DNA of 64,000 nucleotides, taken from positions 1 to 64,000 of the IMG/VR virus record IMGVR_UViG_3300020596_000014; one strand, 5' to 3'. Position 1 is the first letter of the stretch. Each line of letters opens with the position of its first letter. Origin of the DNA: a virus. A program made the translations under genes and the position numbers. Below are positions 10,535 to 57,745 of this stretch, one piece after another. The notes beneath the pieces were generated by a model. The model did not search any database and was not told the DNA's origin. It worked only from the letters and a program-made list of their open reading frames with translations.

Positions 10535-11047
10535 ATGGAAGTTCGAATAGCTAAGATCATGAACAACCGTCAGAAGGTGAACGCTTTGGTTGAAGCTGTT
10601 GCGCGCCGTCTCGTGGAAGCCCAGCCGGCTCCTACAGCCAAGACAGGAAATTTCCGCTACAACAACGACGGCACCTCGACGAGCGAACGTCCGGACGGGA
10701 CAACCCCCACGTCAGGCACAGCGAACACGCAGATGCCTCCGACACAACATCCGCCGACTGTGGCTGCGAGCGCGAGCGCGGCCGAGGCTGGCGCGACCGC
10801 AGACGGCGCCGGGAAGGGTTCGCACATCAACCAGAACCCGAACCGAATCGGGGCGGCGCCTTCTCAGAAGAACATCAAGGTCAACTCCATCAAGAAGGCG
10901 TTGGACACGCAAGGTTACTCGAAAAACCCTGCCGGCGCGAAACGCATGAACACTGCGCTCACCGGTTGGTACGATCAGCTCGATCCCGCGGACGCTTTGG
11001 TCGCGACCGCTGATGAACTCGCACTCCGCTTCGCCGGCGAAGGATGA
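10535..11047 (+). CDS. Low-complexity protein with head-targeting-like N-terminus
   Basis: The protein has 170 residues; an internal ATG at 10559 gives 162 residues and the tidier leader MNNRQKVNALVEAVARRLVE. That leader is amphipathic and ends in LVE-A, a T4 prohead-protease-like site. The rest is a disordered Ser/Thr/Pro/Ala linker (about 40-105) and a small helical C-terminal domain (NSIKKALDTQGYSKNPAG, TGWYDQLDPADALV). It is coupled by ATGA to the kinase-like gene. Function is unknown; packaging in the head is inference from the leader. Confidence 0.65.
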   Translation: MEVRIAKIMNNRQKVNALVEAVARRLVEAQPAPTAKTGNFRYNNDGTSTSERPDGTTPTSGTANTQMPPTQHPPTVAASASAAEAGATADGAGKGSHINQNPNRIGAAPSQKNIKVNSIKKALDTQGYSKNPAGAKRMNTALTGWYDQLDPADALVATADELALRFAGEG

Positions 11048-12024
11048 GTTCACTCCGGGCTCTCATTCGAGCTGTCCTTCTCGAAGACGACGAGAAGCTC
11101 AAGAAGTGGGTTCTTGCTGACGGGAATCCGGTTGAGCGTGAGCTTGTGAAGATCGGCATCGTTCCTCTACGTCGAGGCGCAGAACAGATCTCAAAGCTCG
11201 GTGAAGGACAAAACAACGTTGTTCTTGACGTCGTTTATAATGGCAAACGCGCTGCCGCTCGCATCTCAGAAGAGATGGAGGAGCTTGACTCGCTTACGAC
11301 CTTCGTAGCTCATGTGAAGGCGATGCCGACAAAGTACCACAAACACTTCCCAAATATCTACAAAACTTTTGAGATCAAAACTAGGTCTAGGTGGGATAAT
11401 CAGTACTACTACGGTGCCGTTGTTGAGATGCTTGATCCTTTGCCGCCCGGTCTCGAGTTCGACCTCGACTTTCAGAGCATAAATGGGAACCTGCAGCGCG
11501 CGCGCGTCGCAGCATTGATGGCCGACAACTGGGTGCTTGAAGGCATCATTCAAGACTCTACAGAACAACGTGACGTGCAAGCGGAGCTTCTTCACTTGTA
11601 TGAAGAGAACATTCGTTCTCAGCTGTTGTCGTGGGTGAACAAGCCGCTGAGTGATTTCGACGAGTGGCTGAACAACGTGATCGACAAGCACACCGTAGGC
11701 ATGACGCAAAACGAGTCAAAGCCTTATTACATCTTCAACAAGGGATTGCTAACAGCATTGAAGGGCGCTGTCATCCCGACCGAACCAACTCAATCGCGAC
11801 AACAATCCCGCATGCCGGACAATCACGTTTCTGCAAAGGTTAGGGAATTCTACGAATTCCTTCAAGCACTTGAAGAGTCCGGCATGAAGCACGGAGACCT
11901 TCACACCGGAAACTTCATGGTGCGTCGTAGCACAGGCGACTTTGTGATCGTTGATCCTGGCTATTTCGATTCAAGCAACGACGAATCAGGCTCTAGAAGC
12001 TTCTACCCATCTAGCGGATCGTAG
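11044..12024 (+). CDS. Protein kinase-like protein with head-targeting-like N-terminus
   Basis: The protein has 326 residues. Residues 1-14 (MSSLRALIRAVLLE) form an amphipathic leader ending in LLE-D. Kinase-fold marks follow: glycine-loop-like LGEGQNN (52-58), strand AAARIS where the usual VAIK lysine is Arg (70-75), hinge-like VVEML (126-130), catalytic-loop HGDLHTGN (283-290, compare HRDLKxxN) and IVDPG (302-306, compare DFG). The spacing and HGDLHxGN form are nearer to aminoglycoside-kinase or RIO/ABC1-like enzymes than to Ser/Thr kinases. Asp285 and Asn290 suggest activity; the Lys-to-Arg change leaves it open. It converges on a gene next to a phosphatase. Confidence 0.7.
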   Translation: MSSLRALIRAVLLEDDEKLKKWVLADGNPVERELVKIGIVPLRRGAEQISKLGEGQNNVVLDVVYNGKRAAARISEEMEELDSLTTFVAHVKAMPTKYHKHFPNIYKTFEIKTRSRWDNQYYYGAVVEMLDPLPPGLEFDLDFQSINGNLQRARVAALMADNWVLEGIIQDSTEQRDVQAELLHLYEENIRSQLLSWVNKPLSDFDEWLNNVIDKHTVGMTQNESKPYYIFNKGLLTALKGAVIPTEPTQSRQQSRMPDNHVSAKVREFYEFLQALEESGMKHGDLHTGNFMVRRSTGDFVIVDPGYFDSSNDESGSRSFYPSSGS

Positions 12025-12205
12025 CCTTCGAGACCTTACCATTCTCGATCTCGATACAGACACGATCCGTGCACTCGTCTTCCGGGTAAGAGAGGAACGG
12101 GTCGCCGTCGATGCTGATGAGTCGAAAGATCAGATTCTTGAGCTCGGCCACGTCCTGCGCGCGCTTCTTCGTCATACCAATAAAGTCGATGATCGGTGCG
12201 GTCAT
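12011..12205 (-). CDS. Small hypothetical protein
   Basis: The protein has 64 residues. It is coupled by ATGA to the phosphatase gene and its end overlaps the end of the convergent kinase-like gene by 14 nt. The sequence looks structured: a helix (TKKRAQDVAELKNLIFRL), a YPEDECTD segment and a final strand (RVCIEIENGKVSKATIR). I do not recognise the family. Confidence 0.6.
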   Translation of the reverse strand: MTAPIIDFIGMTKKRAQDVAELKNLIFRLISIDGDPFLSYPEDECTDRVCIEIENGKVSKATIR

Positions 12206-12687
12206 GCACTCGACTCTACGTCGAGAATAGGCAACATGGGACTTTCAGATTCTTTCAAGTTGTCGATGAGCCATTTGGCGAAGGTTTCGTTGTACAACGC
12301 CATCTGACGCTTGCTTTGGATGTGCGCAACGCACTTCTCGCCGGACCACCCGGTGTGCAAATACAGAGCCATCGCTGTGACCATACCAGACCGATTGAGA
12401 CCCGCCATGCACGTGACGAGCACCTTTTTTCCCGTTTCGAGTAGTTGGGCAACACGTTGAGCTGCGAGCATCCACGTTGGCAGGTATCGCATCATGCGAT
12501 TCACACACGCGTCATCCTTGCCAGGGGCGAGGATGACCTGTATGTTTGTGTAGAGTTCGTCATGTTGGTTCTCGTCCGCGCAGAGCACGAGGACTTCGAA
12601 CCCACGTTTGGCGAGCTCGTCTCCGAATGGTGGTAAGGATCCCTGATACAATCTCTCGCAAATCTGGTTAACGTCGAGTGAAGGCAT
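12202..12687 (-). CDS. Dual-specificity (Cys-based) protein phosphatase
   Basis: The protein has 161 residues, the size of a compact dual-specificity phosphatase. The P-loop is VLVTCMAGLNRSG: Cys93-x5-Arg99 with the following Ser, where Cys forms the phospho-enzyme and Arg binds phosphate. The usual HC is TC here. Asp58 or Asp59 in PGKDDACV is a candidate general acid. The N-terminus has the family pattern of ICERLYQGSLPPFGDELAKRG, split as ICERLYQGSL and FGDELAKRG. Substrate could be phosphoprotein, phospho-sugar or RNA 5-prime end. It is the nearest minus-strand enzyme to the kinase-like gene. Confidence 0.85.
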   Translation of the reverse strand: MPSLDVNQICERLYQGSLPPFGDELAKRGFEVLVLCADENQHDELYTNIQVILAPGKDDACVNRMMRYLPTWMLAAQRVAQLLETGKKVLVTCMAGLNRSGMVTAMALYLHTGWSGEKCVAHIQSKRQMALYNETFAKWLIDNLKESESPMLPILDVESSA

Positions 12688-13994: not shown

Positions 13995-14122
13995 GGTCAT
14001 ATTCCTTTTCAAGTCACATCGTCACACGCGTTTTCACACGGACGGGACAGGGAGGATCACGAGGTGAATGGTTATAGTGATAGCTGGATGTTCATGATAT
14101 CTTAGATAGTAGTCGGAAGTTG

Positions 14123-14198
14123 CGATCCCGGCGGGATTCGAACCCGCGATCTTCCAGTTCTATCGGCTGTTTGCTCTAGACCACTGAGCTACGGGATC
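14123..14198 (-). tRNA. tRNA-like gene with irregular anticodon arm, identity unclear
   Basis: Reading the minus strand: acceptor GATCCCG/CGGGATC (7 bp), then TA, D-arm GCTC-AGTGGTCTA-GAGC, and T-arm GCGGG-TTCGAAT-CCCGC, all canonical. Between D- and T-arms are 25 nt instead of the usual 22-23. Only CAG/CTG pairs in the anticodon arm, closing a 9-nt loop CCGATAGAA; a 7-nt-loop folding needs a C-A mismatch and lacks T33. No CCA is encoded. It may be a frameshift-type tRNA, one with a processed insertion, or a decaying gene. I do not assign an amino acid. Confidence 0.7.
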
Positions 14199-16133: not shown

Positions 16134-16991
16134 TCACGCCTCGTAATTTAGCTTATCGAGGGCTGGTTGAACTATTCTGCCCCAATCTTTCATGTTAGGG
16201 TGGGACTTAACAAGAAGTTCGTACACGTCTTCTTCGTGATCGGTCAACCAGGTCAACGCCTTCATCTGCGCTTCGCCGCCTTTTTGAACAGCTTTCACGA
16301 GCTCCGACAACAATTCTACAGGCGCGGGCTCGTTGAGCAGGTCATCGAGTGAATGCCGCGTCTTACTGATGTCGGCATGAGCGCGCTGGAAGCCGTTCTC
16401 GGCGGCGTCTCTTATCATGTCGACGACGTCGTCGCGTGTCCACTCATTCGAAGAAGCCGCTGCCTTGTTGATCACTCGATCTCCTTCTTTTAAGGCTGTC
16501 TCAATGTCGAACCCAACAGGGCCAAGATAGGCAGCCCTGAGGAAGTCGGGGGCATGCTTATCTCTATTAACATCAGCGTCTCGTTCGATCAGTGCGCGGT
16601 TATCCTTGTTTTGCTCAAAGTAGCGTTTGATGACTTGTTGTGCAGCCGGACTAACATTGTTATCGGCGAACACAGACTTCCAATGTTCCAGCGCGCCAGC
16701 TAGCAAAACAACAGAGACGACAGCATTGTCACCGTATAAGAGTTTAAGTCTGTAGTTCCCGTCGTACTCGTGTTTGACCTGTGCGTACCCCAACACCAGT
16801 GGTATCGGCGTTCCCTCATGTACAACGATCTTCGACGTGGAAAGCGCAATCAAGGATACTCTGCCGCTACTACTGCTCTTTAGGAGTGTGAACGCGATGT
16901 GACCAAGCTGTCGGTTCGCGAGTCCAATAACATTAGCCTCTTGAATGAGCTGCGACCGAACGTATTGGCGCAGTTCTTTGAGAGTGACCAT
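16134..16991 (-). CDS. Unknown protein with head-targeting-like N-terminus
   Basis: The protein has 285 residues. Residues 1-18 (MVTLKELRQYVRSQLIQE) form an amphipathic leader ending in IQE-A, like the leaders at 11044 and 57344. A beta-rich domain (about 30-110: HIAFTLLKSSSSGRVSLIAL, PLVLGYAQVKHEYD) is followed by a helical half (VIKRYFEQNKDNRALIERDA, LLSELVKAVQKGGEAQMK). I recognise no family. The minus-strand position among glycan genes differs from its likely virion role; packaging is inferred from the leader only. Confidence 0.6.
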   Translation of the reverse strand: MVTLKELRQYVRSQLIQEANVIGLANRQLGHIAFTLLKSSSSGRVSLIALSTSKIVVHEGTPIPLVLGYAQVKHEYDGNYRLKLLYGDNAVVSVVLLAGALEHWKSVFADNNVSPAAQQVIKRYFEQNKDNRALIERDADVNRDKHAPDFLRAAYLGPVGFDIETALKEGDRVINKAAASSNEWTRDDVVDMIRDAAENGFQRAHADISKTRHSLDDLLNEPAPVELLSELVKAVQKGGEAQMKALTWLTDHEEDVYELLVKSHPNMKDWGRIVQPALDKLNYEA

Positions 16992-21089: not shown

Positions 21090-22070
21090 TCACGTGATCT
21101 TGTCAGCGACGCGACCCTTGTTCCTCTTCATACGAAGCTCGTTGATTTCTACACTGTCCGGGTCTTCCGGACGCTTCTTGAATTGCGTAGACTTGTACTC
21201 ATGCCGATCCCATTCTTCGGGTGACATAGGAACGTAAAAATACAACGCAAGTGATTTTCGTGTCATTCCCTCAGGGCATGCGAGCGGATCGGGATGACCA
21301 TGGTTTGACTTCATATCTGTTCGGAAGATGACAACGCGGTTGAACACCGGCGACACCTTCTTCATACAACATGTCATGTCAGCGTTCCACAACTGAAGCT
21401 CTCCGCCGTAGCTGTCATCCCAGTTCTCGTTGACATAGACGATCATGTTGACCTTGCGAAAGGCTTTCATGGGACGGTGAATGTTGTAGTCTTCGTGCAC
21501 ATCGAGCTTACCGCCAGGCTTGATCTGGTGAAGTCCGCCGCCGTTCAACGTATGGTCAGGGACGAGATTCTCGAGACCTGTGAGACGTCCAAGCTGACCT
21601 ACCACGTCAGACGAGTTCGCCTCGTCGAAGAACTCACGAAAGTCTACATCGAGCTGTGACAGGTCGTTGAACGCAAACTTGCGCTCAAGCGGGTTGTCGT
21701 ACTGCCACCACTTTTTCTCCTCGACACTCGGGTACTTCGGGATAAGCCCACGAAGTGCTTCTGAATCGAGCAGGTTATCGATGACGACATACGGGAACGG
21801 CTGCGCCGAGTTGAAGATCTCGATAGTCGCGGCGGTGTCAATGCGTTTGGTGAAGAACTTCATTTTTTTGTTCATCAAGCGATGAACGTATTTTTTCGCG
21901 AATCCAAACGTCAGCTCTCTTCCGACGATTCGAACGCGCGCTGAGGGTGTAGCAGGAATACGATACACCGTGAACCTTTTCCGGCGGCCGGCAGCGTGAT
22001 CGGGGACGATGACGAAGTAACAACCATAATAACCCACGCGTTTCTCTGTCGTGATCGTTGTGTGCTTCAC
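21090..22070 (-). CDS. 2-oxoglutarate/Fe(II) dioxygenase, prolyl-4-hydroxylase superfamily
   Basis: The protein has 326 residues. The iron site is visible: VHEDYNIH (His-x-Asp) and, about 80 residues later, SNHGHPDPL with the distal His, then RKSLALYFYVP with the Arg that binds 2-oxoglutarate. GGELQLWN is the strand usual between them in Tpa1/P4H-like enzymes. The first 70 residues (about to KKMKFFTKRID) are extra, basic and beta-rich; the ATGA overlap at 22070 supports this long start. It could hydroxylate a protein, lipid or sugar. Confidence 0.82.
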   Translation of the reverse strand: MKHTTITTEKRVGYYGCYFVIVPDHAAGRRKRFTVYRIPATPSARVRIVGRELTFGFAKKYVHRLMNKKMKFFTKRIDTAATIEIFNSAQPFPYVVIDNLLDSEALRGLIPKYPSVEEKKWWQYDNPLERKFAFNDLSQLDVDFREFFDEANSSDVVGQLGRLTGLENLVPDHTLNGGGLHQIKPGGKLDVHEDYNIHRPMKAFRKVNMIVYVNENWDDSYGGELQLWNADMTCCMKKVSPVFNRVVIFRTDMKSNHGHPDPLACPEGMTRKSLALYFYVPMSPEEWDRHEYKSTQFKKRPEDPDSVEINELRMKRNKGRVADKIT

Positions 22071-22504
22071 GGTTTGTACTTCTCGTGCCAGGCGTTGAGA
22101 ACGTGTCGGTAGACCAACATGTTCGGTCGGTAACGTGGGTTGCCGAAGATTGGCTTGTCACTGCCGTTGAGAACAAGGTGAAGCGCTGCAGCGACTGCCG
22201 CCGAACGACTCTTACCAGCGGTGCAATGGATCACAATTCGTTGAGCGTCGGGATGAGCAAGAACGAGATCAACAACCCTTTCGCCATCACTTGGTTGAGC
22301 GAGCGGACAGCTCTCTTGAGTCTGTCCTGCGGAGTGAGTGTCCAGATCCCAAAAGAAAAGGTTGAGCCGGCCAAGGGTATGCTCATTCACTTTGATGTTA
22401 GCCGGGTCTTCGCCCGGGCAATTGATAGAAATGAAGATGTGCGGCACATCGTGAGGCTCCATGGCCTCGATGAGCGGGCGACTGAAGACTTGGATATCGA
22501 TCAC
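22067..22504 (-). CDS. Cys-based protein tyrosine phosphatase-like protein
   Basis: The protein has 145 residues. VIHCTAGKSRSAAVAAAL is a full PTP P-loop (Cys94-x5-Arg100) after a strand and helix. FFWDLDTHS before it supplies candidate acidic residues. The form is that of the small predicted phosphatases annotated as tyrosine-phosphatase-like in bacteria and phages. It is coupled by ATGA to both the epimerase and the dioxygenase, so a role in the glycan pathway, for example on a phospho-sugar, is possible. Confidence 0.8.
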   Translation of the reverse strand: MIDIQVFSRPLIEAMEPHDVPHIFISINCPGEDPANIKVNEHTLGRLNLFFWDLDTHSAGQTQESCPLAQPSDGERVVDLVLAHPDAQRIVIHCTAGKSRSAAVAAALHLVLNGSDKPIFGNPRYRPNMLVYRHVLNAWHEKYKP

Positions 22505-44895: not shown

Positions 44896-45486
44896 ATGGG
44901 ACGATCAACAGTTCTCAACGGCAACGCCACGCTCGGCTCGGGCGACGAATCGACAGCTTTTCAACTAGCAGAACGCATCGTCTATCTGGCAGGTGAAGTG
45001 AGCGAGCAATCGATCGCTCATGTGACAGCAACGATCATCGCACTAGCGAACATCGACAAGTCCACGCCTATCAAGCTCATAATCAGTACGTACGGAGGCT
45101 CTGTCGACGAGATGTTCAGTCTCTACGACGTCATAAAGTACGTTCCGTGCCCGGTTCACACCATTGCTATCGGCAAGGTGATGTCGGCCGGTGTGCTGCT
45201 CGTTGCCTCAGGTTCGCGTGGGAATAGGCTTATCGGTCGCTCCACACGTTTGATGATCCACCCGATCTCAGCAGGTCAAGAAGGCACAGTCTTCCAGATG
45301 AAGAACGAGCTAGCCGAGACGACGCGCATGCAGGCTCTGATGGAAGAATTGCTGGTTGCAAACACCAAGATGACCAAGACGCAGGTCGCAACCCTCATGA
45401 AAAAAGGTCACGACTCGTATCTTACTGCAAAAGAAGCAGTCAAACTAGGCATCGTTGATGCTATCTTTGAAGCACGGGAGAAATGA
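44896..45486 (+). CDS. clpP: ClpP-like serine protease
   Basis: The protein has 196 residues, the normal length of ClpP. The triad is visible: Ser97 in GKVMSAGVLLVASG, His122 in RLMIHPIS and Asp173 in KKGHDSYLTAKEAVKLGIVD. ISTYGGSVDEMFSLYDVI matches the substrate-binding strand and helix. It could form a tetradecamer with host ClpX or ClpA, or act alone as a head-maturation protease, a role S14 proteases play in some phages. The stop overlaps the Hc1-like gene (ATGA). Confidence 0.9.
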   Translation: MGRSTVLNGNATLGSGDESTAFQLAERIVYLAGEVSEQSIAHVTATIIALANIDKSTPIKLIISTYGGSVDEMFSLYDVIKYVPCPVHTIAIGKVMSAGVLLVASGSRGNRLIGRSTRLMIHPISAGQEGTVFQMKNELAETTRMQALMEELLVANTKMTKTQVATLMKKGHDSYLTAKEAVKLGIVDAIFEAREK

Positions 45487-57343: not shown

Positions 57344-57745
57344 ATGAACGAACTGGCTATTCGGAAGTATGTGCGACTTGTACTAGAGCGCGCAATAACG
57401 GTCTCTCCCGACCAACTACTCTTGAAGATCAACGCGAGGAATGGTGGATCGATCCCCGCCGACGAGCTCACGTCCGAGGAAACCACCGTGGCTATGTCAC
57501 TTGTCAAGTGTGACTTGCTCCATCACGTCCCGGCCGGTCATGGCATATCAAATGTTGGTGGCATGCGAGGATTCTACGGCGACAACATGACCGTGACTGG
57601 TGGTCGCAATGAGCCAACGCCTGTCGATCCAAAAGTCGCGCATCGATACCCGGAACGCTACGTCGTCACGTCCGGCGGCAGTCACTCGACAGACACTTTC
57701 AAGAGCGACACGCTGCGAGATGAGCTCCCGCGTCGTCGTCGTTAA
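57344..57745 (+). CDS. Unknown protein with head-targeting-like N-terminus
   Basis: The protein has 133 residues. Residues 1-15 (MNELAIRKYVRLVLE) form a leader that closely follows the one at 16991 (LRQYVRSQLIQE) and ends in VLE-R. A small winged-helix-like part may follow (LKINARNGGSIPADELTSEE, TVAMSLVKCDLLHHVPAGHG), then Gly/Arg-rich residues to a basic PRRRR tail, perhaps for DNA contact. Packaging is inferred. Confidence 0.6.
   Translation: MNELAIRKYVRLVLERAITVSPDQLLLKINARNGGSIPADELTSEETTVAMSLVKCDLLHHVPAGHGISNVGGMRGFYGDNMTVTGGRNEPTPVDPKVAHRYPERYVVTSGGSHSTDTFKSDTLRDELPRRRR

Follow-up and report, generated by a model that had tools for sequence, protein, structure and literature searches.

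The gene at 11044..12024 (+) in the window (the 64,000-nucleotide stretch analysed here, bases 1-64000 of the 132,549-base record of an uncultured, T4-related phage) encodes a minimal kinase-like protein of 326 aa with an N-terminal leader. By analogy with known packaged enzymes, it is best read as a head-packaged, injected kinase-like effector that probably works like T4 Alt. The leader resembles those on head-assembly proteins, and hence the protein is probably packed in the phage head and injected into the bacterium.

The ATG-start open reading frame is supported by homologues, a structural model and a family profile. Family alignment locates a glycine-rich loop (LGEG, residues 52-55, 11197..11208 (+)), the position of the VAIK lysine, here Arg73 (AAARI, residues 70-74; codon CGC, 11260..11262 (+)), a catalytic loop (HGDLHTGN, residues 283-290, 11890..11913 (+)) with Asp285 and Asn290, and a DxG motif (IVDPG, residues 302-306, 11947..11961 (+)) with Asp304, while the hinge-like VVEML (residues 126-130, 11419..11433 (+)) lies at the end of a model strand spanning residues 119-128. 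The reading frame and all motif positions agree with an initial annotation made from the DNA letters, and the motifs do not reflect chance, as they are kept in homologues only 25-29% identical. A profile built from seven family members matched PKA and STE20 kinases in the PDB (E about 2e-5), the PKA match spanning the N-lobe and the catalytic/DxG region. Single-sequence Pfam searches yielded matches below cutoff to ABC1 (PF03109, 5e-4, 19.6 vs 22.9 bits), APH (PF01636, 4e-3, 17.3 vs 23.2 bits) and Pkinase (0.085). An AlphaFold model of the window protein, of moderate confidence (pLDDT 65.7, pTM 0.52), displayed the order of a kinase N-lobe, with five strands plus helix C, and all 50 of its listed Foldseek matches in the PDB were kinase entries, with low TM-scores of about 0.2. 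The better model of a relative (pLDDT 83.9, pTM 0.76) likewise returned kinase entries for 50 of 50 listed matches, aligning to protein kinases over about 200 columns. Both models and the profile thus bear out the kinase fold proposed in the initial annotation, and the modelled protein almost certainly has this fold. The suggested aminoglycoside kinase and RIO kinase families did not give the best match, since APH and ABC1 stayed below the Pfam cutoffs and the fold matches are to eukaryote-type protein kinases.

The gene is rare among the phages searched. A first scan of viral contigs, a tblastn search of 50,697 annotated phage records with the window protein, and a search with a degenerate DNA pattern for HGDLHTGNF each returned no match. 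A full-length homologue, 29% identical, was found in a 140-kb record (G006) by searching phages with a related capsid protein, and chained searches led to further relatives in records of 309, 340, 145 and 324 kb, as well as in the 484-kb metagenomic phage LR756508 and several further contigs. Among 46 records with a related capsid gene, many of them fragments, a kinase match was obtained only in G006 and, by profile, in G029. The 324-kb phage (G050) carries three kinase genes inside about 8 kb, in an island (L144:9689-17728) where the three divergent, leader-bearing kinases are accompanied by further small leader-bearing proteins. The kinases of L144, L166 and L167 had no match among annotated phage records. 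Neither a plasmid search for kinase relatives nor one bacterial-genome scan with the jumbo-phage subgroup identified a relative or a clue to the host. These kinase-like proteins form a phage family for which we found no earlier description in the literature searched.

The leader, predicted by the initial annotation at residues 1-14 (MSSLRALIRAVLLE, 11044..11085 (+)), proved real, and is supported by its motif rank, a model helix and a comparison with T4 gp24. Several proteins in the window genome and its relatives begin with a pattern of roughly L-R/K-x-x-I-x-x-x-L-x-E, which was observed in six genes vs 0.8 expected in G000, seven vs 0.7 in G006, and nine vs 1.6 in G016. In the surroundings of related capsid genes, 48 of 1,059 genes carried the pattern vs 4.6 expected, most of them coding for one conserved small protein with a start like MKITKQQLKAIVKECLVEILAEG. 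In many relatives its gene lies about 3 kb upstream of that for the capsid protein. With an independent motif trained only on this conserved head-cluster protein, the window kinase came second among the 147 genes of its genome, with only the training protein ahead of it. Two kinases of G050 ranked third and fourth of 446, and other kinases ranked more modestly (17 of 179 in G006, 24 of 388 in G029, and another 34 of 446). The combined P for six kinases is about 6e-6, a value that is not fully independent because the six are related. A looser leader rule, written after the kinases had been seen, was passed by 10 of 14 family members vs 7.9% of genes and 4.4% of shuffled N-termini. The four failures comprise two members that are leader-bearing by eye (G050 copy b and L166) and two without a leader (L165 and L168), while L163 passes with a leader not of the usual type. 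We consider it quite likely that the window protein is targeted to the head.

The genome encodes a T4 gp21-type prohead protease (PF03420, E 2e-27) together with T4-type capsid, portal and terminase genes, and portal, protease and capsid follow the T4 order. In related capsid proteins, Glu60 is invariant (52/52) and Leu58 nearly so, and this L58-x-E60 site of the major capsid protein aligns with the known cut of T4 gp23 at LTE65. Head proteins of the giant phages phiKZ and SPN3US are likewise trimmed after Glu (PMC5694885). The leader of the window protein ends in L-L-E14|D15, a predicted gp21-type cut whose motif is consistent with the T4 and capsid-protein sites. In the model, a low-confidence helix (residues 2-14) is followed by a very-low-confidence stretch (15-26), and T4 gp24 offers a comparison in its start, MAKINELLRE|S, from which the first ten residues are trimmed. 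T4 provides a precedent, as its packaged Alt and internal proteins are ejected and fusions to the CTS are delivered as well (PMC9026906). On the opposing side, the kinase gene lies at a distance from the head cluster, and scanning the window, L002, L003 and L004 gave no T4-type late promoter (TATAAATA). We consider injection of the window protein into the host likely.

Similar leaders also occur on other proteins. A NUDIX hydrolase (2e-20) with the leader MKFLRQYIRTLICEAV is encoded in the kinase-carrying G006 phage (L089:2686-3246), and an Acb1 anti-CBASS homologue (Pfam 3.9e-9, above cutoff) with the leader MSLLREYIQNLITEK lies downstream of a capsid gene (L073:11582-12115). From its sequence, the latter is a possible virion-delivered anti-CBASS protein, and both proteins could plausibly serve as counter-measures delivered by injection. 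On other evidence, earlier work has proposed that NUDIX and ADP-ribosyltransferase proteins are packaged (PMC9503650). The same start as in the L073 Acb1 homologue is seen in L074 and L075. In LR756508, seven consecutive genes precede the kinase (L118:170-5811), and the majority open with a short leader, for example MKFKNLLFE. Six of the proteins can be aligned as paralogues and share conserved Arg, Ser and Phe-Ala residues, which may be of the ADP-ribosyltransferase kind; these leader paralogues had no Pfam match, and an ADP-ribosyltransferase identity could not be established. Leader-like starts were also noted on predictions without assigned function in the window (16134-16991 (-) and 57344-57745 (+)) and elsewhere in the same genome (L003:7493-8113, L003:13378-13884 and L003:15665-16636), all candidate head cargo.

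Immediately upstream of the kinase, an open reading frame at 10535..11047 (+) overlaps the kinase start (ATGA). Its possible start, MNNRQKVNALVEAVARRLVEAQ, is leader-like and leads into a flexible Pro/Ala-rich region, and family searches with this gene gave no match. Just downstream, on the opposite strand, lies a dual-specificity phosphatase (12202-12687 (-), Pfam DSPc 1e-12). A second phosphatase-like reading frame, with HCTAGKSRS identified by eye, is found at 22067-22504 (-), and neither phosphatase has an evident leader. Other features of the window include a tRNA-Tyr (14122-14198 (-)) with a reported anticodon of ATA, unusual for tyrosine, and a ClpP-like protease frame recognised by eye (44896-45486 (+)), present besides the genome's gp21-type prohead protease.

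Active sites were compared across 14 family members, the window protein included. None of the 14 lacks the catalytic-loop Asn or the DxG Asp, and the catalytic Asp is present in 13, with Gly in its place in LR756508. The DxG motif is DPG in six members, DLG in four, DVG in three and DGF in LR756508, so that the DPG of the window protein, with Pro for the Phe of DFG, is one that recurs within the family. At the VAIK lysine, 13 members have Lys and the window protein alone has Arg. The initial annotation had stressed both departures; both are present, but only the Arg is specific to the window copy. All 14 chains end 4-27 residues past DxG, and the family thus lacks the C-terminal kinase subdomain. 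In the window protein, 20 residues follow DPG, without an activation segment, APE or C-terminal subdomain. Protein kinases usually lose phosphotransfer when the VAIK position is occupied by Arg. Because Arg73 replaces the ATP-anchoring lysine, the window copy may be weak, mechanistically altered or binding-only, and its sequence indicates that it may be a weak kinase or a pseudokinase. We rate real phosphotransfer by this copy at slightly below an even prospect. The codon CGC matches neither AAG nor AAA, the two Lys codons, at any of its three positions, and Arg73 is therefore no sequencing slip. These three changes, in a residue unique among the 14 members, also speak for a packaged pseudokinase, head-targeted and injected, which would bind nucleotide or a host partner without phosphorylating. 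We regard such a protein as unlikely, as Asp285, Asn290 and Asp304 are all retained, which would be unusual in a long-dead kinase.

Other explanations concern the leader and the destination of the protein. If the leader placed it in the prohead core, it could act in assembly or be digested rather than injected, as would befit the similar leader on the conserved head-cluster protein, a probable core component, and the fate of the T4 core proteins gp22, gp67 and gp68, which are cut up by gp21 (PMC9026906). Yet a head-assembly factor is improbable given the accessory distribution of the gene, found only in G006 and G029 among the capsid-related records, many of which are fragments, and known head assembly needs no kinase domain. 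It is more doubtful still that the protein is a small-molecule or glycan kinase, APH- or ABC1-like, that serves the large surrounding glycosyltransferase cluster and bears its leader incidentally. The window is indeed rich in glycosyltransferase-like genes by eye, and the weak ABC1 (5e-4) and APH (4e-3) matches point the same way, but the leader recurs across genomes, the family has no C-terminal substrate domain, and the fold and profile matches are to protein kinases. Aminoglycoside kinase, ABC1 and glycan kinase identities were set aside. Similarly, we see very little chance that the leader is a fortuitous resemblance or serves some different end, perhaps contact with a membrane or a role like that of the cargo tags of bacterial microcompartments. 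Short amphipathic helices are common, and shuffled N-termini pass the loose rule in 4.4% of cases; however, its rank of 2/147 with the independent motif, its recurrence across kinases and its protease-consistent L-x-E end argue against coincidence.

The proposed head-packaged, injected kinase-like effector can be set beside several known systems. T7 gp0.7 (phrog_15752), a phage kinase acting on host proteins, resembles the role proposed for the window protein, and a weak profile match was obtained (E 0.006), although there is no clear sequence kinship. T7 gp0.7 is made after entry, and to our knowledge it has no leader of the capsid-targeting type. The best phage-family match was to a "kinase" family, phrog_18305 (E 2.7e-6), covering the catalytic segment only (residues 266-310). 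With T4 Alt, a head-packaged ADP-ribosyltransferase, and IPI-III, the window protein shares a short capsid-targeting leader at the N-terminus that stops close to a Glu, and a gp21-type protease in the genome, and with Alt the character of an enzyme cargo that would be expected to work ahead of phage gene expression. The parallel with Alt drawn in the initial annotation holds as a likeness in mode of working. Unlike Alt, the window protein is kinase-like rather than an ADP-ribosyltransferase, its packaging is predicted from sequence, and its leader, at 14-20 residues, is longer than the roughly 10 residues of Alt and IPI-III. Polyvalent-protein kinases, predicted to be injected, have also lost the whole C-terminal subdomain while keeping the active site (Iyer 2017, PMC5512222), and jumbo-phage members of the window family share with them a Gln at the hinge strand. 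In contrast, polyvalent-protein kinases have His and Asp separated by an insert, which is missing from the window family (HGD in the window protein), and they occur in (pro)phages of Verrucomicrobia, Chlamydia and Bacteroidetes, whereas the window family consists of stand-alone short proteins with a capsid-targeting leader, several using DPG, in T4-related phages.

In the mechanism we propose, the first 14-20 residues would fold as a short amphipathic helix like those of T4 capsid-targeting leaders. Judging from this similarity, the helix would carry the kinase-like protein into the prohead core. The gp21-type protease would then trim the leader after the L-x-E site, probably at Glu14, and the trimmed protein would remain with the DNA and enter the host at infection, as T4 Alt does. 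Its body, as sequence and models indicate, is a minimal kinase domain made of the N-lobe and the catalytic/DxG segment without the C-terminal subdomain. The family would most likely phosphorylate a host protein before phage genes are read, possibly for host takeover or the disarming of a defence.

ADP-ribosyltransferases are well-known examples of phage enzymes packaged in the head, and in the literature searched we found no report of a head-packaged kinase with a capsid-targeting leader. If the proposal is true, the leader would offer a sequence-only means of listing injected cargo in many uncultured T4-related phages, one that already points to the Acb1 anti-CBASS homologue and the NUDIX hydrolase, and the family would provide a minimal kinase without a C-terminal subdomain together with a natural Lys-to-Arg variant. 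More broadly, there is about an even chance that uncultured T4-related and jumbo phages pack truncated protein kinases via T4-type leaders and inject them within a modular arsenal of kinases, NUDIX, Acb1 and perhaps other proteins, such that host or defence proteins would start to be phosphorylated as the DNA enters the cell.
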